A stretch of DNA of 64,000 nucleotides from assembly GCA_003158745.1 (NCBI GenBank), contig PMLC01000029.1, positions 1 through 64,000 on the forward strand, read 5' to 3'. This DNA comes from Acidobacteriota bacterium (lineage in GTDB: Bacteria; Acidobacteriota; Thermoanaerobaculia; Thermoanaerobaculales; Thermoanaerobaculaceae). The position numbers were made by a program, and so were the translations under genes. The notes beneath the pieces are model-generated. The model ran no database searches and had not been told where the DNA came from. It saw nothing but the letters and a program-made list of their open reading frames with translations. Positions within the stretch are counted from its first letter, which is position 1. Each line of letters opens with the position of its first letter. This document shows positions 49,222 to 64,000 of this stretch, piece by piece.

Positions 49222-51411
49222 ATGAAGAACAACTTCTCAGGTCGGACGCTGGCTGTACCTTTGGCGAGCCTCGCGTTCCTGATTAGTCCCACCCACGCTA
49301 ATGCTGCCATCCCGGCCAGCGAACGTCAGGCGCTGGTTGCTCTGTACAACGCCACGGACGGTGAACGGTGGGCCTATGGCACCCAGTGGAACGGGACGGT
49401 TGGGACGGAATGCACATGGGACGGCGTCACATGTGATGCCGAGGGGACCACGGTCACCGCTCTTTCACTGCGGAGGCGTGGTTTGCAGGGTCACCTGCCT
49501 GTGTCTATCGCCCAGCTCACAAACCTCGAGACCCTCGACCTCGGGGAGCTCAACGCCCTTGAGGGTCCGGTTCCACTCGAGCTCTGCCGTCTCTCGAAGC
49601 TGCGGAAGCTCCTCTTGGACGGCAACGGACTCTCGGGGCCCATCCCACCTCAGATCGCCAGCCTGCGAAACCTGGAAGTGCTCGAACTATCCTTTAACAG
49701 CCTATCCGGTTCGATTCCGGTCGAGCTGGCGCAGCTCGCCAATCTCGAGCGCCTCGAACTCGAAGGGAACAACCTCCTAGGAGTAATCCCGGCCCAGCTC
49801 GGCAAGCTATCCCGCCTCACGTGGCTCAACCTGGATCGCACGAAGATCTGGGGCACGATCCCGCCGGAACTAGGCCGGCTCACCAACCTCACCTACCTCA
49901 AGCTCAAGTCCAACCAGCTGTCCGGCTCGATCCCGCGCGAGCTCGGGAACCTCGTTGCCCTTGAATACCTGGGGCTAGGCCACAATCAACTCTCCGGCCC
50001 CATTCCTGCCGAACTCGGGAGGTTGCCCAGGGTGCGCATAATCGATCTCTCCTACAACCAGCTCGAGGGTTCGATACCTGATGGCCTGAGCGCGCTTGCC
50101 CAGCACGTCTTGCTGAGTCTGGACTTCAGACACAACAAGTTCAGCGGCCCGATCCCCCCCGAGCTGGGGAACATGCCGTACCTGGAGGGTCTGAATCTCT
50201 CGGCCAACCAGCTCACGGGTCCGATACCGCCGGAACTTGGCAAGCTCCAGGCGGGCGGGGGCGTCTCGCTTGACCTCTCGGCGAACCACCTCACGGGCTC
50301 GATCCCGCCGGAGCTTGGCAATCTGAACGCGGTCTACCTGAACCTCTCCTCGAATCTCCTCACTGGCCCGATCCCGACAGAGATCGGGAAGATCACACGA
50401 CTTAACCAACTTGACCTCTCCGCGAACCGCCTCTCTGGGCCGATTCCTAGTGAGCTGGGACAGCTTCGATTCCTGCTGCTGCTCGATCTCTCAATTAACG
50501 AGCTGAGCGGCCCGATCCCATTCACGCTCGCAACCGCCACCTCGATGCTCGAGTTGAACCTCAGCTACAACCGCCTGAGCGGCCCCATACCAGGTGAGTT
50601 TGGGAGCGTGAAGCACCTTCGGCATCTTGACCTCTCGACCAACCAACTCACGGGTCTGATCCCGCCTGAGCTTGGCAAGCTCCAGGTGGACCTGGGCGTC
50701 TCCCTCAACCTCTCGGTCAACCACCTCACGGGCTCAATCCCGCCCGAGCTTGGCAATCTGAACGCGGTCTACCTGAACCTCTCCTCGAATCTCCTCACTG
50801 GTCCGATCCCGACAGAACTCGGGAAGATCAAACGCCTCAACTACCTCGACCTCTCGGTGAATCAGCTCACAGGTCATATTCCCCCCGAACTCGGCACGCT
50901 GGTCCGGATGGGGAAGCTCAAGCTCTGCGGCAACGCGCTCGCGGGCGAGATTCCCAAGACGCTGGAGGCCATGGATACGCCCACGCGCCGTGTCCAGTCG
51001 ATCGACATCCGTTGGAACGCGCTCCATACGGTGGACGCCGCCCTCGGGACGTTCCTCGAATCCAAGGAAGTCGATGGCGACTGGTCCGCCACGCAGACCG
51101 TTCCACCGAGCGATGTGAGCGTGAGCGTTGAGGCACCGGACTCGATCACGCTCAGTTGGGCGCCGGTGAGCTACACGGCCAACCCCGGTTACTATCGGAT
51201 CTACGCATCAGCGGTCAGCGGCGGTCCATATCAGCTCGTAGCCACCACCAGAAGCAAGGCCGACGCCTCATGGCTGGTCACGGGGCTTCATGGGGAGACG
51301 TTGTACCTCGTGATCGACACCGTCACCGAGCAGCACGTGCACAACCCAGGCCCCGTCGAGAGCGACCATTCGAAGGAAGTCTACGCACAACTGACCGCCC
51401 GAATGAGGTAG
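49222..51411 (+). CDS. Secreted plant-type leucine-rich-repeat protein with C-terminal fibronectin-III-like domain
   Basis: Signal peptide; ERQALVALYNATDGERWAYGTQWNG...CTWDGVTCDAEGTTVTALSL LRR-N-terminal-like cap; many LxxLDLSxNxLSGPIPxELGxL repeats; C-terminal PDSITLSWAPVSYTANPGYYRIYAS. Confidence 0.92.
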   Translation: MKNNFSGRTLAVPLASLAFLISPTHANAAIPASERQALVALYNATDGERWAYGTQWNGTVGTECTWDGVTCDAEGTTVTALSLRRRGLQGHLPVSIAQLTNLETLDLGELNALEGPVPLELCRLSKLRKLLLDGNGLSGPIPPQIASLRNLEVLELSFNSLSGSIPVELAQLANLERLELEGNNLLGVIPAQLGKLSRLTWLNLDRTKIWGTIPPELGRLTNLTYLKLKSNQLSGSIPRELGNLVALEYLGLGHNQLSGPIPAELGRLPRVRIIDLSYNQLEGSIPDGLSALAQHVLLSLDFRHNKFSGPIPPELGNMPYLEGLNLSANQLTGPIPPELGKLQAGGGVSLDLSANHLTGSIPPELGNLNAVYLNLSSNLLTGPIPTEIGKITRLNQLDLSANRLSGPIPSELGQLRFLLLLDLSINELSGPIPFTLATATSMLELNLSYNRLSGPIPGEFGSVKHLRHLDLSTNQLTGLIPPELGKLQVDLGVSLNLSVNHLTGSIPPELGNLNAVYLNLSSNLLTGPIPTELGKIKRLNYLDLSVNQLTGHIPPELGTLVRMGKLKLCGNALAGEIPKTLEAMDTPTRRVQSIDIRWNALHTVDAALGTFLESKEVDGDWSATQTVPPSDVSVSVEAPDSITLSWAPVSYTANPGYYRIYASAVSGGPYQLVATTRSKADASWLVTGLHGETLYLVIDTVTEQHVHNPGPVESDHSKEVYAQLTARMR

Positions 51412-54709: not shown

Positions 54710-55846
54710 CTACGACCACACGCCGGGGATGGCGCGGGCGCAACTCGGGCAGCGGCCCTTCGTGAGGCGGTTCTCCATGACCTGGAACCCAACCCGCCGG
54801 ATGAGCTGGCCGCCACAGCCCGGGCAGACGGTGCTCTCGCCGGCGTGACCGGGGACGTTGCCGAGGTAGGCGAACGCGAGCCCTTCGGCCTTTGCGATCT
54901 GCCAGGCTCGCTCCAGCGAATCGAGCGGGGTGGGCGGGAGGTTGGTGAGGCGGTACGTCGGGTGAAAGCGTGTGAAGTGCACCGGCACCTCGGCACCGAG
55001 GGTCGTCTTGACCCAGCGAGAGAGGGTACGGACCTCCGCTTCGGAGTCGTTGAGCTCCGGAAGTAGCAGCACGACGATCTCGAGCCAGGTCCCGCTGGCC
55101 TTGATCGCCTCGATCGACTTGAGGACGGGTTTCAGCTCGCCACGCACGACGTCCTTGTAGAAGCGTTCGGAGAATGCCTTGAGGTCCACCTTCATCGCGA
55201 CGAGCGACGGGAGCACCTCCTTGAGGGGCTTCTCCTGGATGTAGCCGTTGGAGACCACCGTGGAGCGGATACCGAGCTTCCGTCCCTCGATGGCGGTGTC
55301 GCGCACGTACTCCCAGAACACGACAGGCTCGGAGTAGGTGGCGGACAGCAGCGGCACGCCGTTGTTGCGCGCGATCTTGGCGAGCGCCTCGGGCGGCAGG
55401 TACGTGGCAGCGACCTGCTCCGGCCTGAACTGTGAGATCTCCCAGTTCTGGCAGAACTTGCACTCGACGTTGCAGCCCGCGGTGGCGTACGACAGCGCCT
55501 GCGAGCCGGGCAGGACATGGAAGAAAGGTTTCTTCTCGATCGGGTCCAGGTGAACGGTGCAGGCGAGGGAGTGGACGAGCGTGTTGTAGACGCCGCCGCG
55601 GTTCTCGCGGACACCGCACCCGCCGCGCTCGGCATCGGCGACTTGGCAGCCGCGGGGGCAGAGCTGGCACTCGACGCGCGAGTCGGGGAGCTTCTTGTAC
55701 CAGGACGCCTCGCGGGCCGGCAGCTCGTCGGGGGGAACGGGAGCGCCGACCGTCGGCGAGGCGGCTTTGCTCCGGCGCGGAAGGAGCGCGGCGGCCGCTC
55801 CGGCGCAGGTGGCCACGGCAAGCTGCCGGCGGCTCAGGCTGCCCAT
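54710..55846 (-). CDS. amrS: AmmeMemoRadiSam-system radical SAM enzyme (AmrS-like) with predicted twin-arginine N-terminus
   Basis: CQLCPRGCQVADAERGGCGVRENRGGVYNTLVHSLACTVHLDPIEKKPFFHVLPGSQALSYATAGCNVECKFCQNWEISQFRPEQV; N-terminus MGSLSRRQLAVATCAGAAAALL. Confidence 0.9.
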   Translation of the reverse strand: MGSLSRRQLAVATCAGAAAALLPRRSKAASPTVGAPVPPDELPAREASWYKKLPDSRVECQLCPRGCQVADAERGGCGVRENRGGVYNTLVHSLACTVHLDPIEKKPFFHVLPGSQALSYATAGCNVECKFCQNWEISQFRPEQVAATYLPPEALAKIARNNGVPLLSATYSEPVVFWEYVRDTAIEGRKLGIRSTVVSNGYIQEKPLKEVLPSLVAMKVDLKAFSERFYKDVVRGELKPVLKSIEAIKASGTWLEIVVLLLPELNDSEAEVRTLSRWVKTTLGAEVPVHFTRFHPTYRLTNLPPTPLDSLERAWQIAKAEGLAFAYLGNVPGHAGESTVCPGCGGQLIRRVGFQVMENRLTKGRCPSCARAIPGVWS

Positions 55847-56820
55847 TACGCGCGCACCTCCACGATTCCTGCCGGGTCCGCGACGCCGAGACCGTAGCGC
55901 GCGGCGGTGGCGAGGAAGCGCGGCGGGCGTCCGGCCGCTTCAAGCGATGGCATGCCTTTCCGCTGACGCTCGGCATCGATGACCTTCCAGGCCCAGGCGT
56001 CCGCGGCGACCGGGTCGGTGGAGGCCGCGATCAGACCGAGGGGCCAGACGGCATCCGGGCGGTACGCCGGTCCGCCGTGGCACTGCGCCGTGACGCCGTC
56101 GAGGACAACGAGGCGCAGCTTGCCCTTGACGAACGGGTGGTTCAGGACGTCGGCGACGTATGGATCGCAGTTGTGGTCGTGGTACTTGTTTGGGTTGTGG
56201 ATCAGGCCGTACAAGTTCTTCAAGCCTGCCGACACCCCGGCGAGGTCGTGGTCCTTGACGACGCCGAACGACACCAGCGCACTGCAGGTCGTCGACACCA
56301 GTCGGGCGAAGCACGAGCCGATCTGGCCGGAGGCGGTGGGTTCGCGGTCGTAGTCGTTGTCGATGCCGTAGCACAGCCAATCGCCGTCGTCCCGGCGTAC
56401 GGGGAACCGGGAACGGGCGAGCTCGCGGCTCGAGCGGTCGAACACGATGATGCGGTGCGACGGGATTCCGCGCTGGTGGAGTAGCCCGGCGAGCGCCGAC
56501 ACCAGCTCGACACGTGGTGACATGCCGGGGCCGGCGATGGAGTTGACCTTGACCCCCACGATGTCCTCCGGGAGGAACAGGGCCTCGACGGCGTCGCGGG
56601 CCGTCGCAAGCCCCGTGCACGCGACGAGCGCCGCGCTCAAGGCTCGCTCGGCCGCTGCGGGATCGAGCGGTCCGCCGCCCGCGCCGGGGGGCAGCGGCGC
56701 GAGCCCCACGCGGCCGCGCACCCGCGGAGGTCTGGCCGCAGCGCCCGCGCCGCGGGCCAACCCGGCCACGCCGAGACCGGCAATTCGTACCAACTCGCGG
56801 CGACTGATCGTTCGGCCCAC
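55846..56820 (-). CDS. DUF362 domain protein with Tat-like signal
   Basis: VGRTISRRELVRIAGLGVAGLARGAGA; VGVKVNSIAGPGMSPRVELVSALAGLL; GTG start; stop overlaps start of 54710..55846. Confidence 0.8.
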   Translation of the reverse strand: MGRTISRRELVRIAGLGVAGLARGAGAAARPPRVRGRVGLAPLPPGAGGGPLDPAAAERALSAALVACTGLATARDAVEALFLPEDIVGVKVNSIAGPGMSPRVELVSALAGLLHQRGIPSHRIIVFDRSSRELARSRFPVRRDDGDWLCYGIDNDYDREPTASGQIGSCFARLVSTTCSALVSFGVVKDHDLAGVSAGLKNLYGLIHNPNKYHDHNCDPYVADVLNHPFVKGKLRLVVLDGVTAQCHGGPAYRPDAVWPLGLIAASTDPVAADAWAWKVIDAERQRKGMPSLEAAGRPPRFLATAARYGLGVADPAGIVEVRA

Positions 56821-56906
56821 GTGTCTCCCCCTGGGCGAGGATACGCCTGTTGCGGGTCTCAGGATCCCTCCGGGCTTTGTGAGAAACTGTTTATAATCGG
56901 GACACG

Positions 56907-59246
56907 ATGCACGGACCGCCGGGGCCCACCACGAAGACCCTGCCATTTCTTGCTGTCGGGAGCGAAACCGTCACACCTCAGTTCGCGCTGCCGGCGCGAT
57001 GGCAGATCACCCGATTGCTCGGCGCCGGCGGGCAGGCCGAGGTCTGGCTCGCTCGCGACCAGGAGCTGGACGAGTGGGTGGCGGTGAAGGTCTTCCGCGG
57101 GGACATATCCGACACCCGCCGCGAGTGCATGCGCCGAGAGGTCCGGCTCGGCCGGTCGCTGTCCCACCCCAATCTGGTCCGGGTCTACGAGCTGATCGAG
57201 GCCGGGGAGCACCTCGCTGTTTCGATGGAGTGGGTGCGCGAGGGAAGTCTCGCGTCCTGCCTCGAGGACGGACCGCTGGAGATCGGGAGGGTCATCGCCG
57301 TCGCGGACGAGGCGCTCTCGGTGCTCGCGTACTTGCACGACCAGGGGATCGTGCACCGCGACGTCAAGCCTTCAAACCTGTTGCTGGACGACCGCGGTCG
57401 CGTGCGTCTCGCCGACCTCGGACTCGCGCGGCCGCTCGAGCCCGGCTCGGACCTGACGACGACGGCGACGACCGTCGGGACGCCGGGGTTCATGAGCCCC
57501 GAGCAGATCCGCGGCACGGAGCTGACCCCCGCATCCGACCTCTATTCGCTGGGCGTGGCCCTGTTCCATTTGCTGACGGGGCGCATGCCGTCCGAGGGCA
57601 ACTCGGGGTTCGAGATCGCGGACAGGCACCTGCACAAAGAGCCGCCAAGCCCTCGGTCGCAGCGGCCGGAGTGCCCGGCGTGGCTGGCGCATTTCGTCTT
57701 GCGCCTGATGGAGAAGTCGCCGCGCGATCGGTGGCCCGACGCGGCCCGGGCCCTGGACGCGCTCCGCCGCAGGCGCGTGATGGCGTCCCCCCGGACCTGG
57801 CGCCGAGCAGCGGCGGGCGCGGCGGCGGTGGGGGTCGTCGCCGTCGCGGCGACGTGGGCCGTCCGTCACCTCCATCCGCTCCCGGCCGGTGTGCGAGTCG
57901 TCGGGAATGACGTGGTGGTCAGCGACGCCTCGGGGCATCAACTTTGGCGGAAGACGTTCCCCGGAGACGCACCGACGGCGGCTGTTGGCGACGTCCTCGG
58001 TGGGGGGCCTCAGGTAGCCATCGGGTTCGGAACGGCCGGGAGACCCGGCGACGTCCCCGACCTCGCCATCTTCTCCCCGGATGGCCGAGAGCTCGAGCGG
58101 ATCTGTTCGACCGGCGCGACCTTTCCCCTGTATTTCCCTGATTTCGAGAATCGTGTCGGAGTGACATGGCCTTCGATGATCGATCTGGACGGCGACGGGA
58201 AGCCGGAGCTCGTCTGGAGGACCAACCACGCCGTCTGGTACCCGTCGCTGGTTGGCGCCTGGAACCCGCGCGCCGGTCTTTCGCCGAGCGTGCTGTTCGT
58301 GAATTCCGGGACGATCCACGGGGTCTCCGGCGCCGACCTCGGCGGCGAGCGCCGGACGCTCGTCATCTCGGCGATCAACAACCCCCTGGGGTACCAGAGG
58401 GTGGTGGCGCTCGTGGAGCCGGTCCACCAGGCAGGTTCCGCCTACCAAGAGGGGTTCTCTCCCGACCTTTTCGGGGAGTGGAGTTCCGCCCCCCGCAACG
58501 GCGTGGTCCCGGTGCGCGCGTTCACACCCATCGGGCCGGCGGGCGGTGTCGCCCTGGTGCTGGCGGCCGGCCCCTCCGGCATCGTGCTCGACGTGGACCG
58601 TCGGCGAATCGAGCTCGATGCCGACGCCAACCCGAGGGGCTTTCCCCTCTACGGCGCGGGGTCCGCCGGTCGCACCCGGTTCTGGAACGAGCTGGCGGCG
58701 GCGTGCCTCGACCTCGCAGGCGGCAGGGGGGATTCGCGCGCGGTCGTGGCGGGGCTTCGGGAGCGGCACGCGGCCGCGCTTGCGGAGCCGCCGATGGAGC
58801 TGGCGCTTACCCTGATGCTGGCTCGTTCGCTGGCCCAGGCGGGAAACCACGGGGCCGCGATCGACCTGCTGCAGACCGCGCTCGCCGCGACGCCCGACGA
58901 CCTCGACCTCTTGCTGCGTCTCGGCGAGCAGCTCGCGGCAGTGGGGAACTACGGTGCCGCGATGGATGCGCTGGCGCGTGCACACCGGGTCAATATCGTG
59001 GGGCGCAACCCGCTGGACGCCGCGGTGTCCCGCGCCGAACTGGCGGCCGCCTCGGGCGACGAGGTGCGCTTCCGGCAGGTCGTCGAGTACTCGAGGGCGA
59101 GCAGTGAAGGCGGGTTCCGGGATGTCGAGAGCCAACTCCTGGCCTTCTGGGCGTTCTGCCGCGGAGAGTGGGGGGCCCAGGATCTCGTCGAGGAGGCCGA
59201 CGACCACAACGTGCCGATCGTCACGGTGCTGCGCGCGTGGGCGTGA
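56907..59246 (+). CDS. Ser/Thr protein kinase with TM segment, beta-propeller-like extracytoplasmic domain and TPR region; interrupted by TGA
   Basis: WQITRLLGAGGQAEVWLARDQELDEWVAVKVF, IVHRDVKPSNLLLDDRGRVRLADLGLA, GTPGFMSPEQIRG; DLDGDGKPELVW FG-GAP-like. Confidence 0.88.
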   Translation: MHGPPGPTTKTLPFLAVGSETVTPQFALPARWQITRLLGAGGQAEVWLARDQELDEWVAVKVFRGDISDTRRECMRREVRLGRSLSHPNLVRVYELIEAGEHLAVSMEWVREGSLASCLEDGPLEIGRVIAVADEALSVLAYLHDQGIVHRDVKPSNLLLDDRGRVRLADLGLARPLEPGSDLTTTATTVGTPGFMSPEQIRGTELTPASDLYSLGVALFHLLTGRMPSEGNSGFEIADRHLHKEPPSPRSQRPECPAWLAHFVLRLMEKSPRDRWPDAARALDALRRRRVMASPRTWRRAAAGAAAVGVVAVAATWAVRHLHPLPAGVRVVGNDVVVSDASGHQLWRKTFPGDAPTAAVGDVLGGGPQVAIGFGTAGRPGDVPDLAIFSPDGRELERICSTGATFPLYFPDFENRVGVTWPSMIDLDGDGKPELVWRTNHAVWYPSLVGAWNPRAGLSPSVLFVNSGTIHGVSGADLGGERRTLVISAINNPLGYQRVVALVEPVHQAGSAYQEGFSPDLFGEWSSAPRNGVVPVRAFTPIGPAGGVALVLAAGPSGIVLDVDRRRIELDADANPRGFPLYGAGSAGRTRFWNELAAACLDLAGGRGDSRAVVAGLRERHAAALAEPPMELALTLMLARSLAQAGNHGAAIDLLQTALAATPDDLDLLLRLGEQLAAVGNYGAAMDALARAHRVNIVGRNPLDAAVSRAELAAASGDEVRFRQVVEYSRASSEGGFRDVESQLLAFWAFCRGEWGAQDLVEEADDHNVPIVTVLRAWA

Positions 59247-59588
59247 CTCGCCCGCGGTGGAGACGCCGCTGCGACTGCTCGGCAGGCGCAGAGCCTCGCG
59301 GAAAACCCCGAGATCCGCAACGCGGCCGAGCTTCTGCGGGCGGCCGCGCTGGTGCGGAGCGGGCAGGCAGGGATCGCCAGGGGGATCGCGAGCGGCGCTC
59401 TCGCGGCCCTCGAGCGCAAGGCGCGAACGGGCATCGAGGCGCAGTGCCTGGTGCCCCTTGCCGAGAGGGTCAATGGCGACGCTGCGGCAGCGCTCGGCGA
59501 CACGGCGGCGGCGGAAGGCCACTGGGCGAGAGCGCTGCGGCTCGCTCCGCGCTGCTGGTTCGGGCGGCCACCAACCCCGTCGCGGTGA
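59247..59588 (+). pseudogene. In-frame C-terminal TPR-like continuation of the kinase after TGA at 59244-59246
   Basis: Same frame reads LARGGDAAATARQAQSLAENPEIRNAAELLRAAALVRSGQAGIARGIASGALAALERKARTG... to TGA at 59586. Confidence 0.55.
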
Positions 59589-59595
59589 GCCCGCG

Positions 59596-61119
59596 TTACT
59601 CGTGCTCGCCGAAGACCTGCGCGGTGAAAACCTCGAAGCGCGCGCCGCTTCGCCATGCGTCAGGAGCGAGCCCGGCCTTCTGGGAGAGCGCCGACAGGAA
59701 CGTCGAGAGGTCCCACCCGGTCTCGGTGGCCACCTGCGGGAGGAACACCGCGCCCCGTCCGGACTTCGTCAGCACCACGCCGTGCTTGCCCAGGACGATG
59801 TCCTCGGGGCCGCCCACCGGGCGCATCGGGGAGAGCACCGACACCTCGACCGCAACCTCGTCGAGCTCCGATGCGGCTAGTTCTGGAAAGCGCGGGTCGT
59901 GGGCCGCGGAGACGGCCGCGCCGATCACCGAGTCGACGAGGGGCTCGCGCGCCTCCATGGAGCCGATGCAGCCGCGCAGCTTCCCCTCTTTGCGCGCTTT
60001 GGCTCCCGTGTTGTTCACGGTGACGAAGACGCCGGAGAGCGCCGCGAGGTTGCCTGCCACCGGGTGCGCGGCGAACCAGTCGGCAAGCTGTCCCTGGTGA
60101 GTGAGGTGGGTCGCGAGCGTGGCCCTGGCCAGCTCCACGACCGCCTTCTCCTCCGGCTTGCTCAGCTCGGTCGGGTGAGGCGGCGCGGGGTCGTCGCGCC
60201 AGGAGCCCCAGCTTCCCGTGAAGTCGACGCCGGCGTACGCGACCACCTGCGACCAGTCGCCGCTGACCTCCGCGGAGGTGGTCACGTCGGCAACGGCCCC
60301 TGAGCCCTGGAAGGCGTGGGCGAGCAGCTCGAGCAGCACCGTGATCGGCCGGGCGCCGCACACCGTGTCGCCGCTCGTCTCGATCTGCTGCGAGAAGCCG
60401 AGCGGGTCGATGGCCGCCGCGCGACCGGCGGTCGAGCGGGCGAGCGCCACCAGCTTGGGTCCAAGGGTGTGATCGGTCGCAAAGGGCCTGTAGTCGTAGG
60501 CAGCCCCGTGATGGGTGAAGTCCGAGGAGGCCACCACGATGGTGCCCGGTCCGAGGAGATCGGCCAGGCGCCGGGCCATGGCGACGGCGAGGGCCAGATC
60601 GGTCGCGTGTCCGACGACGATCGGCACGATCGGGACCGGCCCGACCGTGGCTAGGAGGAACGGAAGCTCGACCTCGAGACTGTGCTCGCGTACGTGCGCG
60701 CTCGCAGGCCCTCTGAACTCGGGCAGCGCGGCGAGCTTTGCGACCGCCTCGCGGTCTACGGGCATCTCGCCGAGGGGCGTCGCGAACGCGGTGACGTCGC
60801 GGTCCGGCAGCGCGCCTCCCGCGAACCCTGCGTAGTGCGAGGGACCGAGGATGATCACCCGGGTGGGCTTGGAGCCGGCGAGCGGAGCGAACGCCTTGCC
60901 CGCCGTGGCGCCGGAGAAGACGTAGCCCGCGTGGGGGGCGATCACGGCAACCGAAGCCTGGGCCGCGCCCTTCCCCGCAGCAAGGAACCCACGCACCTCG
61001 CCCTCGAGCTGGCGGGCGTCACCAGGGTAGAAAGCTCCCGCCACGGCGGGCGGGCGGACCTCGGCTCGGACCATGTTCGTGAACATGAGCACCCCCAGGA
61101 TCAGCGCAGCGTTCCTCAT
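59596..61119 (-). CDS. Fused MEMO1 (AmmeMemoRadiSam B) - AMMECR1 (AmmeMemoRadiSam A) protein with signal peptide
   Basis: MRNAALILGVLMFTNMVRAEVRPPAVAGAFYPGDARQLEGEV (signal plus MEMO start), VIAPHAGYVFSGATAGKAF, ILGPSHYAGF, SGDTVCGARPI; then AMMECR1 GVFVTVNNTGAKARKEGKLRGCIGSMEAREPLVDSVIGAAVSAAHDPRFPEL. Confidence 0.93.
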   Translation of the reverse strand: MRNAALILGVLMFTNMVRAEVRPPAVAGAFYPGDARQLEGEVRGFLAAGKGAAQASVAVIAPHAGYVFSGATAGKAFAPLAGSKPTRVIILGPSHYAGFAGGALPDRDVTAFATPLGEMPVDREAVAKLAALPEFRGPASAHVREHSLEVELPFLLATVGPVPIVPIVVGHATDLALAVAMARRLADLLGPGTIVVASSDFTHHGAAYDYRPFATDHTLGPKLVALARSTAGRAAAIDPLGFSQQIETSGDTVCGARPITVLLELLAHAFQGSGAVADVTTSAEVSGDWSQVVAYAGVDFTGSWGSWRDDPAPPHPTELSKPEEKAVVELARATLATHLTHQGQLADWFAAHPVAGNLAALSGVFVTVNNTGAKARKEGKLRGCIGSMEAREPLVDSVIGAAVSAAHDPRFPELAASELDEVAVEVSVLSPMRPVGGPEDIVLGKHGVVLTKSGRGAVFLPQVATETGWDLSTFLSALSQKAGLAPDAWRSGARFEVFTAQVFGEHE

Positions 61120-61346
61120 GCAGGGATTGATAAGTCCGCGAGACGAAAAGTGCAACTTTGAAGCCCGGAAACCCCAGGTGTTTTCTGTTGCGAGGGCGGA
61201 TCTTGCTGCGCTGGCGGGCGTACTCAGGGCTCGAACCGTGCCGCTGTACCGCAGAAGTATGGCTCCGGCTCTTCGCCTACGGGCGCCCGCCATCATCAGC
61301 ATCCCCGCCCTCTCGCGACGAAACCAACTGGGGTTTCCGGGCTTGG

Positions 61347-62834
61347 TCACTTCGGCAAACCTCCGGCCAGGAGCCGGTTCAGGGGATCGCGCGTCTCGCC
61401 GACAGAGTAGACGCGGATTGCGGCCTCCTCGCCGACGGGGCACTTGTTCTCGCAGATGCCGCAGCCGACGCACTTGGCCACGTCGACGCGCGGGCGCTGG
61501 AGCTTCCGGGACGCGCCGTCGCGCCCGGCCTCGTCGACGGTCTCGAACCAGATCGCCTTTGGGTCGGTCGGGCACATCTCCTCGCAGACGATGCACGGCG
61601 TGCCCATCGCCCACGGTAGGCAGCGGCCCCGGTCCACAAAGGCGGTGCCGATGCTCACCGGGGGCTTGCCGTCGTACCCGGTCTTGCGCGCCGGGGTGAG
61701 CCTGGTTATTGCTCCCGTCGGGCAAACCTCGCCGCAGCGGGTGCACGCGAACTCGCACCACCCTCGGCGCGGAACGACCACCGGCGTCCAGAAGCCCTCG
61801 ACTCCGGCCTGGCCAATCGCGGAGTGGATCGCGCTCGTGGGACAGGCCTGCTGGCAGAGCGAGCACTTGACGCAACGCTGCAGGAACTCCGCCTCGCCGA
61901 GCGAGCCGGGCGGGCGCAGTAGACGCGGGCGCGCGGCTTCGCGGCCGCCGCCGGTGGCTCGGAGGAGCGGGGCCACGGCGATCGACCCGAGGACGGTTCC
62001 CAAGAGGTAGCGCCTCGAGAGGTCGGGCTCTTTGGGGGGGGCCGGCAGGGCGGGCAATGCCTGGTAGGTTATCGCCTGCTCGGGGCACGCCGGCAGGCAG
62101 TTGAGGCAGACCAAGCACTCGCCGACGCGATGGCTCCCGAGCGGCTCGTCGGCGCCCTGGCACGCGAAGGTGCAGAGTTTGCACGACGTGCAGGCGTCGC
62201 CTGCGCGGTGGATGCGGCACACCGCGAACCGGGCGAAGACGCCCAGCAGTGCGCCGAGCGGGCAGAACCCCCGGCAGAACATGCGCGGAATCCACCGGCT
62301 CGCCACCAGGATTCCGAGCAGCAGCACCGCCGCGACCCACCCGCCCGGCGCCGGCCGGCCGCCGGGAAGCAGGGGCCAGAGGCCCGAGGCGAGGCCGCGC
62401 GCCGTCAGCGACAGGGGGTCGAGCAGGCCCGTCTGCAGCGTCCCGGCGAGGGCGCCGACGAGCAGGGCGGCGAGGGCGTAGTACTTGATCGCGTACCAGC
62501 GGCGGTAGCGATTGACGTGCAGGCTCTCGCGCCGCGTGCGCGGCGAGAAGAGCCGGCTCGAGAGCTGCTGCAGAGTTCCGAGGGGACACACCCATCCGCA
62601 GAACGCCCGCCCGAATAGAAGCGTGAGCGCGATCAGGACAGACCCCCACACAAGTGCGCCCGGAAGGGTGCCCGAACCGAACGTCACGCCGACCGCAGAG
62701 AGCGGGTCGCCGTGGTGGAAGGCGGAGAACGGAAGGTCGCGAGCGTCCCCCGCCGCGAGGCGCGCCAGCAGCCAGAGGAACACTACCAGGAAGAACGCCT
62801 GGTAGAGCACGCGGATGCGGATGGTCCACCTCAC
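61347..62834 (-). CDS. NapH-like membrane polyferredoxin fused to NapG-like Tat-type ferredoxin domain
   Basis: CGWVCPLGTLQQL and CRGFCPLGALLG (NapH/NosR-type CxxxCP); internal SRRYLLGTVLGSIAVAPLL; RLLRPPGSLGEAEFLQRCVKCSLCQQACPTSAIH, CTRCGEVCPTGAI, CIVCEEMCPTDPKAI, CVGCGICENKCPVGEEAAIRV. Confidence 0.85.
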   Translation of the reverse strand: MRWTIRIRVLYQAFFLVVFLWLLARLAAGDARDLPFSAFHHGDPLSAVGVTFGSGTLPGALVWGSVLIALTLLFGRAFCGWVCPLGTLQQLSSRLFSPRTRRESLHVNRYRRWYAIKYYALAALLVGALAGTLQTGLLDPLSLTARGLASGLWPLLPGGRPAPGGWVAAVLLLGILVASRWIPRMFCRGFCPLGALLGVFARFAVCRIHRAGDACTSCKLCTFACQGADEPLGSHRVGECLVCLNCLPACPEQAITYQALPALPAPPKEPDLSRRYLLGTVLGSIAVAPLLRATGGGREAARPRLLRPPGSLGEAEFLQRCVKCSLCQQACPTSAIHSAIGQAGVEGFWTPVVVPRRGWCEFACTRCGEVCPTGAITRLTPARKTGYDGKPPVSIGTAFVDRGRCLPWAMGTPCIVCEEMCPTDPKAIWFETVDEAGRDGASRKLQRPRVDVAKCVGCGICENKCPVGEEAAIRVYSVGETRDPLNRLLAGGLPK

Positions 62835-62843
62835 GGCAGGGCT

Positions 62844-62988
62844 CCGGGATCCGGGGTCCGGGGTCGGGGACAACAAAGAGAGCATGTCCGGTGTCCGGTG
62901 GCCATGGTGGGGCAAGAACCCGTCGGCTTTTTGCCGGCCGAGCGGGGTTGGGCGGCCCTGACCCCTGATCCCTGACCCCGGACCCCTC
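62844..62988. repeat. Iterated-unit inverted repeat, GGGGTCAGGGA/CCGGGGTCC-type
   Basis: ccgggatccggggtccggggtcggggac and ccctgacccctgatccctgaccccggacccctc arms between NapHG-like and DUF362 genes. Confidence 0.8.
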
Positions 62989-62991
62989 TCT

Positions 62992-63975
62992 TCATGCCGT
63001 CCCCAGTTCCTTGACCAGGGCGAGGTCGGCGCGGCCGAGGCCACGGCGCTCGGCTTCGGCGATGAACCCGAGGCCCTCGGGCTTGTGGCCGAGGAGCGAC
63101 GCGCCCCACGCGTCGGCCAGCACCGGGTCGGTCGCGGCGAGGACGGCGCCCACCGGCAGGACGTCCGCCAGGCTGCCTCCGACGGGTCCGTTGGCTGCGA
63201 GCACCCGGGTCGCGTCAACGACGGTGAGCGTCGGCCGGAAGGTGGCGCCGAGCTCCGCCACCGCCCTGTTGATGTCCTGGTGCAAACGGTTGCGTCCCTT
63301 GCCAAGGACCCCGAACCAGTTCTTCATGCCGAGCGTCACGCGCGAGAGGCTGTGGTGCTTGACCACCGGGACGTTGATGACGCGATCGGCGCGGAGCAGC
63401 TCCTCGACGACTTGGAGCCCCGCCGAGAGCCCGGGCAGCGCGGCCGTTGCCAGGTGCAAGCGACCGGATTCGATGACCTCGGCCCCGGCTGCGGTCGCCG
63501 CCGCTTGGATGCCGGAGCGCGCGAAGCAGCGGCGAGGGTCGTTGCAGGAGATGTCGGTGACCACGACCCGGCGCGCGCCCGCGGCAATGCACAGCCTGAC
63601 AATTTCGGCCACGACCTGCGGATCGGTGTTCGCGGCCTGCTCGGGCAGGCGGTCCCACCCGACGTTCGGCTTGACGAGCACGGTCTCGCCCTTGCGGACG
63701 AAACGCTCCATCCCGCCCATCGCCGCCACCGCGCGCCGGACGTTCCCCGCGGGATCGCTCCCGCGGGCCGCCGCCGCCGTTCCGGTGCCCGGCTGTGGGA
63801 CGCGCCAGTCGGGGATCGCGGAGGCGCTTGCCGAGACGGTTCGGCGGTCGTGGAAGGTCGCGAAGCCGGCGCCGACGGCCGCGGCCGCGACGGCCGTCGA
63901 CGACAGCCGGAGCAGTGCCTCGCGCCGGGTGACCTTGGGCGTGGACGGGCCGCTCACGGCCGCCCTTTCAGCCAC
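62992..63975 (-). CDS. DUF362 domain protein with Tat-like signal
   Basis: KVTRREALLRLSSTAVAAAAVGAGFA; VLVKPNVGWDRLPEQAANTDPQVVAEIVRLCIAAGARRVVVTDISCNDPRRCFARSGI. Confidence 0.85.
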   Translation of the reverse strand: MAERAAVSGPSTPKVTRREALLRLSSTAVAAAAVGAGFATFHDRRTVSASASAIPDWRVPQPGTGTAAAARGSDPAGNVRRAVAAMGGMERFVRKGETVLVKPNVGWDRLPEQAANTDPQVVAEIVRLCIAAGARRVVVTDISCNDPRRCFARSGIQAAATAAGAEVIESGRLHLATAALPGLSAGLQVVEELLRADRVINVPVVKHHSLSRVTLGMKNWFGVLGKGRNRLHQDINRAVAELGATFRPTLTVVDATRVLAANGPVGGSLADVLPVGAVLAATDPVLADAWGASLLGHKPEGLGFIAEAERRGLGRADLALVKELGTA

Positions 63976-64000
63976 CCTGCTGCGACGGTGGCGAGCGCCT

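Follow-up and report, generated by a model that had tools for sequence, protein, structure and literature searches.

A putative extracytoplasmic version of the AmmeMemoRadiSam system in an Acidobacteriota bacterium

A minus-strand gene cluster and its products

The window, by which we mean the whole 64,000-nucleotide stretch of contig PMLC01000029.1 that was analysed, carries close to its end a group of minus-strand genes that the initial annotation had described as a cluster of an AmrS-like protein, a MEMO-AMMECR1 protein, two DUF362 proteins and a polyferredoxin. A family-model search of the window confirmed this: all five genes are present on that strand, and each matches its family. They are listed here with a sixth gene that runs over the window's edge and with a plus-strand gene, MSpeE, discussed further below.

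54710..55846, minus strand: AmrS, a radical SAM enzyme of 378 aa with a Tat signal, MGSLSRRQLAVATCAGAAAALLPRRSKA
55846..56820, minus strand: DUF362a, a LarA-fold protein of 324 aa with a GTG start and a Tat signal, MGRTISRRELVRIAGLGVAGLARGA
59596..61119, minus strand: MEMO-AMMECR1 fusion of 507 aa with a Sec-like signal, MRNAALILGVLMFTNMVRA
61347..62885, minus strand: NapH-NapG fusion (NapHG) of about 512 aa
62992..63957, minus strand: DUF362b, about 321 aa, with a Tat-like signal, VTRREALLRLSSTAVAAAAVGAG
63954..64000, minus strand: 3' end of the gene for a DUF6599 protein, the first gene of the conserved cluster, with an N-terminal TM segment
25478..27643, plus strand: MSpeE, a polytopic membrane protein of 721 aa and a candidate SAM-handling component

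The start of DUF362a is most likely the GTG at 56820, which has a good ribosome-binding site (AGGGGGAG), rather than the ATG at 56946, and the stop of this gene overlaps the start of AmrS. MEMO-AMMECR1 starts at the ATG at 61119 and DUF362b probably at the GTG at 63957, while the start of NapHG was placed near the ATG at 62885 because the long TTG ORF shows homology to its relatives only from about residue 151 onward. The DUF6599 gene extends beyond the end of the window (C102:63954-64643, with a start at about 64499-64643), and its product is membrane-anchored. A plus-strand kinase gene at 56907-59246 splits the cluster between MEMO-AMMECR1 and DUF362a, which we count against our best explanation. 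The product of this gene is a serine/threonine kinase with TPRs, present at the related loci L040 and L043 and absent at L048 and L059. Elsewhere in the window, positions 49222-51411 of the plus strand encode an exported leucine-rich-repeat protein of 729 aa.

AmrS belongs to the AmmeMemoRadiSam radical SAM family, scoring 351.5 bits against TIGR04337 (cut-off 220). Its CX3CX2C motif lies at C125/C129/C132, its SAM-binding residues D221 and K223 align with the DLK motif of the pyruvate formate-lyase activating enzyme (PFL-AE), and its predicted fold (pLDDT 85.8) matches the AdoMet-bound form of that enzyme with a TM of 0.75-0.81 of target. MEMO-AMMECR1 is a true fusion, i.e., TIGR04336 (209.5 bits) and TIGR04335 (146.7 bits) both score over their cut-offs on one protein, and the MEMO metal ligands (His, His, Cys) are conserved relative to human MEMO1. 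Both DUF362 proteins match PF04015 (71.6 bits for DUF362a and 159.4 bits for DUF362b, cut-off 24). The predicted fold of DUF362a (pLDDT 90.3) matches LarA racemase structures (E 2.7e-5); a sequence search with DUF362b returned no match among solved structures.

The genome contains a single AMMECR1 domain, the one within the exported fusion, which rules out a cytoplasmic trio built from the second AmrS (contig C5) and the second MEMO (contig C40). These two genes each stand alone: the MEMO (L037, 8360-9529) has a Sec-like signal, and the AmrS (L038, 4810-5787) is divergent, with an N-terminus that adjoins a run of N.

Signal sequences in relatives and across phyla

The alignment of TIGR04337 with AmrS begins no earlier than residue 48, which makes the N-terminus MGSLSRRQLAVATCAGAAAALLPRRSKA an extension of the family's domain. 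Signal labels in this work were given by motif search and by eye, not by a trained predictor. The AmrS N-termini show the features of Tat substrates (twin arginines, a short n-region and a hydrophobic stretch), and in 21 of 21 orthologs examined the twin arginines lie 3-14 residues from the start and are followed by a hydrophobic stretch. A test of this kind on 339 non-system neighbour ORFs gave only 16 positives, and cytoplasmic AmrS paralogs in the same genomes have no such extension, so that a chance occurrence of twin arginines in GC-rich sequence could be ruled out. The initial annotation had raised the concern that these N-termini might be absent or mis-started in orthologs; the orthologs keep their signals and the start sites have ribosome-binding sites, which rules out mis-started or vestigial signals. 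The SRRELV and TRREAL starts that it had reported on the two DUF362 proteins were both seen again, and the genome encodes TatC (231.6 bits).

About 37 of 61 related genomes encode this class of AmrS. A comparison of their loci found the order DUF6599, DUF362b, NapHG, MEMO-AMMECR1, DUF362a, AmrS conserved across the order and class, in full in several genomes, with MEMO-AMMECR1, DUF362a and AmrS together in most of the loci fetched. Next to exported AmrS genes, MEMO-AMMECR1 has Sec or lipoprotein (lipobox) N-termini, and in two related genomes without a Tat-AmrS and without a strong MSpeE match (G011 and G014) the fusion has no signal.

The invariance of the twin arginines of DUF362a in our alignment A2 is partly circular, as starts had been chosen by their presence; in a count that disregards this choice, they are present at 28 resolvable N-termini and absent from 4. 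A Tat signal on one side only of a DUF362a-AmrS pair was seen at L058/L202, L066, L069, L072 and L204. At L058/L202, L066, L069 and L072, DUF362a lacks a signal where AmrS has one, and genome G040 has two further AmrS copies without a twin-arginine signal though its DUF362a has one; we count both situations against our best explanation. None of the resolvable pairs lacks a signal on both members, and the one-sided cases, small in number, suggest from their sequences that DUF362a and AmrS may be co-exported as a complex, one hitchhiking on the other.

When genome contigs were scanned, relatives of AmrS turned up in many phyla; of 80 N-termini, about 45 are Tat-like and 16 Sec-like, and exported forms occur in Planctomycetota, Aminicenantes, KSB1, Poribacteria, Latescibacterota, Omnitrophota and others. 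Of the 121 AmrS domains placed on a tree, 55 form a clade (SH-aLRT 97) in which nearly all members have a Tat signal. The distinction between exported and cytoplasmic AmrS requires 4 changes on this tree as against 9 for the presence of a Tat signal alone, so that Tat and Sec-like signals replace one another in lineages that stay exported. A search of the literature with partial coverage, including few subscription papers, found no report of an exported AmrS.

Eight Tat-AmrS proteins of one clade (L053, L089, L102, L103, L108, L109, L112 and L116) carry, between signal and catalytic domain, an insert resembling a c-type heme site, namely a CxxCH motif followed by a distal His. The heme in that clade is a motif-level prediction, and the AmrS of the window lacks the insert. 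Attachment of c-type heme takes place exclusively outside the cytoplasm. Six lineages have a split AmrS, with the catalytic part separate from an exported N-terminal piece, and this too is counted against our best explanation. At these loci (L087, L094, L104, L126, L133 and L136) the EAxYW N-terminal strand of AmrS is encoded at the end of an exported or membrane ORF, and the catalytic part follows as a signal-less ORF, mostly with stop-start overlaps.

Redox neighbours and the location of the enzyme

NapHG consists of a NapH-like TM part with CxxxCP motifs, an internal twin-arginine/TM segment (SRRYLLG) and a NapG-like 4Fe-4S part, the twin arginines standing directly before the NapG half (SRRYLLGTVLGSIAVAPLL). 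Its first half matches the NapH type at 88 bits (cut-off 213) and its second half NapG at 95 bits (cut-off 269). As these scores are below the equivalog cut-offs, we call the protein NapHG-like rather than NapH or NapG, and count this against our best explanation. Similar redox neighbours recur in different phyla: NapHG adjoins exported AmrS at L064, L066 and L130, FMN_bind-NapH proteins, some with a DsbD_2 part, lie upstream of AmrS at L087, L094, L104, L121, L124 and L128, and DsbD_2 (DsbD-type) proteins adjoin other exported AmrS genes. The support for the NapHG-type electron feed proposed initially is an association that repeats across phyla.

The initial annotation had left two readings of the signals, placement outside the cytoplasm or simple anchoring. 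If the N-terminal segments were mere membrane anchors, the catalytic domains would remain in the cytoplasm; the hydrophobic segments, whose cleavage sites are uncertain, and the split AmrS genes that begin without any signal are in keeping with this. However, Tat and Sec signals take downstream sequence outward, MEMO-AMMECR1 proteins have lipoboxes, a heme-like motif stands between signal and AmrS domain in the sister subfamily, extracytoplasmic electron carriers adjoin AmrS, and cytoplasmic AmrS paralogs have no such extensions, so we regard anchoring as highly improbable. The outside location is well supported by four independent lines, namely the interchange of conserved Tat and Sec-like signals, the Sec and lipoprotein signals of MEMO-AMMECR1, the CxxCH...H insert and the redox neighbours, and AmrS and its partners are, judging from their sequences, very probably exported.

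An electron route through NapHG to AmrS appears likely on balance. NapH-like flavinylated systems have been described as extracytosolic electron carriers with largely uncharacterised reactions, and NapH-like modules serve reductases and oxidases alike (PMC8238504). The latter point would also allow electrons to flow the other way, with an extracytoplasmic substrate being oxidised, its electrons passing through NapHG to quinone, and AmrS acting as a maturase for MEMO-AMMECR1 or DUF362; the LarA-like fold of DUF362a, from a family with a special cofactor, would suit such a scheme. We consider this quite unlikely, given that radical SAM enzymes need reducing power and that carriers of the DsbD and FMN_bind-NapH types usually pass electrons outward.

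SAM supply, proposed pathway and known systems

An all-against-all comparison of the neighbours of AmrS loci yielded the MSpeE family, polytopic proteins about 715 residues long whose central domain resembles spermidine synthase (Pfam PF01564 in most members). MSpeE flanks 33 of 66 exported versus 0 of 12 cytoplasmic AmrS loci (p 0.0009), and of the related genomes, 31 of the 37 that encode the AmrS class contain a strong match versus 1 of the 24 that do not, counts that ignore genome relatedness. This link between MSpeE and exported AmrS loci is new in the present analysis. The MSpeE of the window, which was not part of the initial annotation and is a candidate further component, has a degenerate spermidine-synthase-like domain set between two TM bundles and is homologous over its full length to a Scalindua protein. 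By BLAST it is the one match in its genome (25478-27643) and the only strong match to the family there; a profile search gave three more, those listed being weaker, partial and on other contigs.

What MSpeE does is a matter of two readings. It may be a neighbour with a polyamine role of its own, unrelated to SAM supply, to which we give about an even chance: the family includes true aminopropyltransferases, and in the window the gene stands 27 kb from the AmrS cluster. The association with exported over cytoplasmic loci and, relatedness of the genomes aside, with genomes encoding the AmrS class speaks against such a role, as does the tendency of the family to keep its nucleoside-binding residues while the catalytic Asp varies. 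The window protein itself scores 21.3 bits against Spermine_synth, below the cut-off of 22.9 for that model. MSpeE is a tentative candidate for a SAM-handling or SAM-exporting component.

Whether the exported AmrS performs SAM chemistry is a separate point. We know of no established pool of free SAM outside the cytoplasm, which counts against our best explanation, and the conserved neighbours are redox proteins; AmrS and its partners might thus be exported while AmrS serves as an Fe-S redox or binding protein, or carries out one bound SAM for a single action. This seems unlikely to us, since conservation of the radical SAM cysteines, of D221 and K223 and of dozens of further positions is as high in exported as in cytoplasmic AmrS, with a single alignment column (P142) separating the two groups, and since the predicted fold matches AdoMet-bound enzymes. 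We infer, with somewhat better than even confidence, that AmrS uses SAM outside the cytoplasm.

Overall, the cluster is probably best explained as a form of the AmmeMemoRadiSam system that operates outside the cytoplasm. AmrS and DUF362a would leave the cytoplasm folded, via Tat and possibly as one complex, MEMO-AMMECR1 would go out via Sec, and the NapH-NapG fusion would be a membrane protein whose NapG half faces outward. Quinol would supply electrons, and NapHG would relay them to the 4Fe-4S cluster of AmrS. This enzyme would cleave SAM outside the cytoplasmic membrane and use radical chemistry to modify a substrate held by MEMO-AMMECR1, the SAM having crossed the membrane, most likely through MSpeE.

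Among known systems, the closest is the AmmeMemoRadiSam system itself, with TIGR04335, TIGR04336 and TIGR04337 all over cut-off, co-located and with conserved catalytic residues; the version described here differs in being exported, in its fused MEMO-AMMECR1, in its DUF362 partners and NapHG, and in having no AMMECR1 domain outside the exported fusion. 'Memo-Ammecr1 systems' are attributed to Burroughs et al. 2019, as cited in PMC7159879. The flavinylated NapH-like systems of PMC8238504, whose main text does not mention Memo or AMMECR1, are similar in that FMN_bind-NapH adjoins some exported AmrS genes and the window has a NapH-type membrane protein, which however joins NapH to NapG and lacks FMN_bind. 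NapGH quinol dehydrogenase shares the four-TM NapH-like part and the NapG-like ferredoxin part with a preceding twin-arginine segment, whereas the protein in the window is one chain, scores below the equivalog cut-offs and has no nitrate reductase beside it. PFL-AE is the best fold match to AmrS, with CX3CX2C and DxK aligned; in contrast, it is cytoplasmic, signal-less and without MEMO/AMMECR1 partners, and AmrS has extra N- and C-terminal Cys motifs. DUF362a resembles LarA, among the nickel-pincer nucleotide racemases, by predicted fold (E 2.7e-5); the two share about 15% identity, and DUF362a differs in being exported. DUF362 and DUF2088 belong to a common Pfam clan, CL0471 (PMC11770544).

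A still broader proposal, which we hold to be possible though doubtful, is that many phyla run a whole radical SAM pathway outside the cytoplasmic membrane, its electrons supplied interchangeably by NapHG, FMN_bind-NapH, DsbD-type proteins or a c-type heme on the enzyme itself, and its SAM delivered across the membrane by MSpeE as a dedicated protein. Radical SAM enzymes are understood as cytoplasmic, as SAM and strong reductants are found there. If true, placement outside would break the rule that these enzymes work only inside the cell, and a widespread, conserved exported group would raise two questions, how SAM gets outside and by what means the cluster is reduced in that location. Humans, too, have MEMO and AMMECR1 domains, and an exported AmrS group would offer a way into the AmmeMemoRadiSam proteins, whose function is unsettled.
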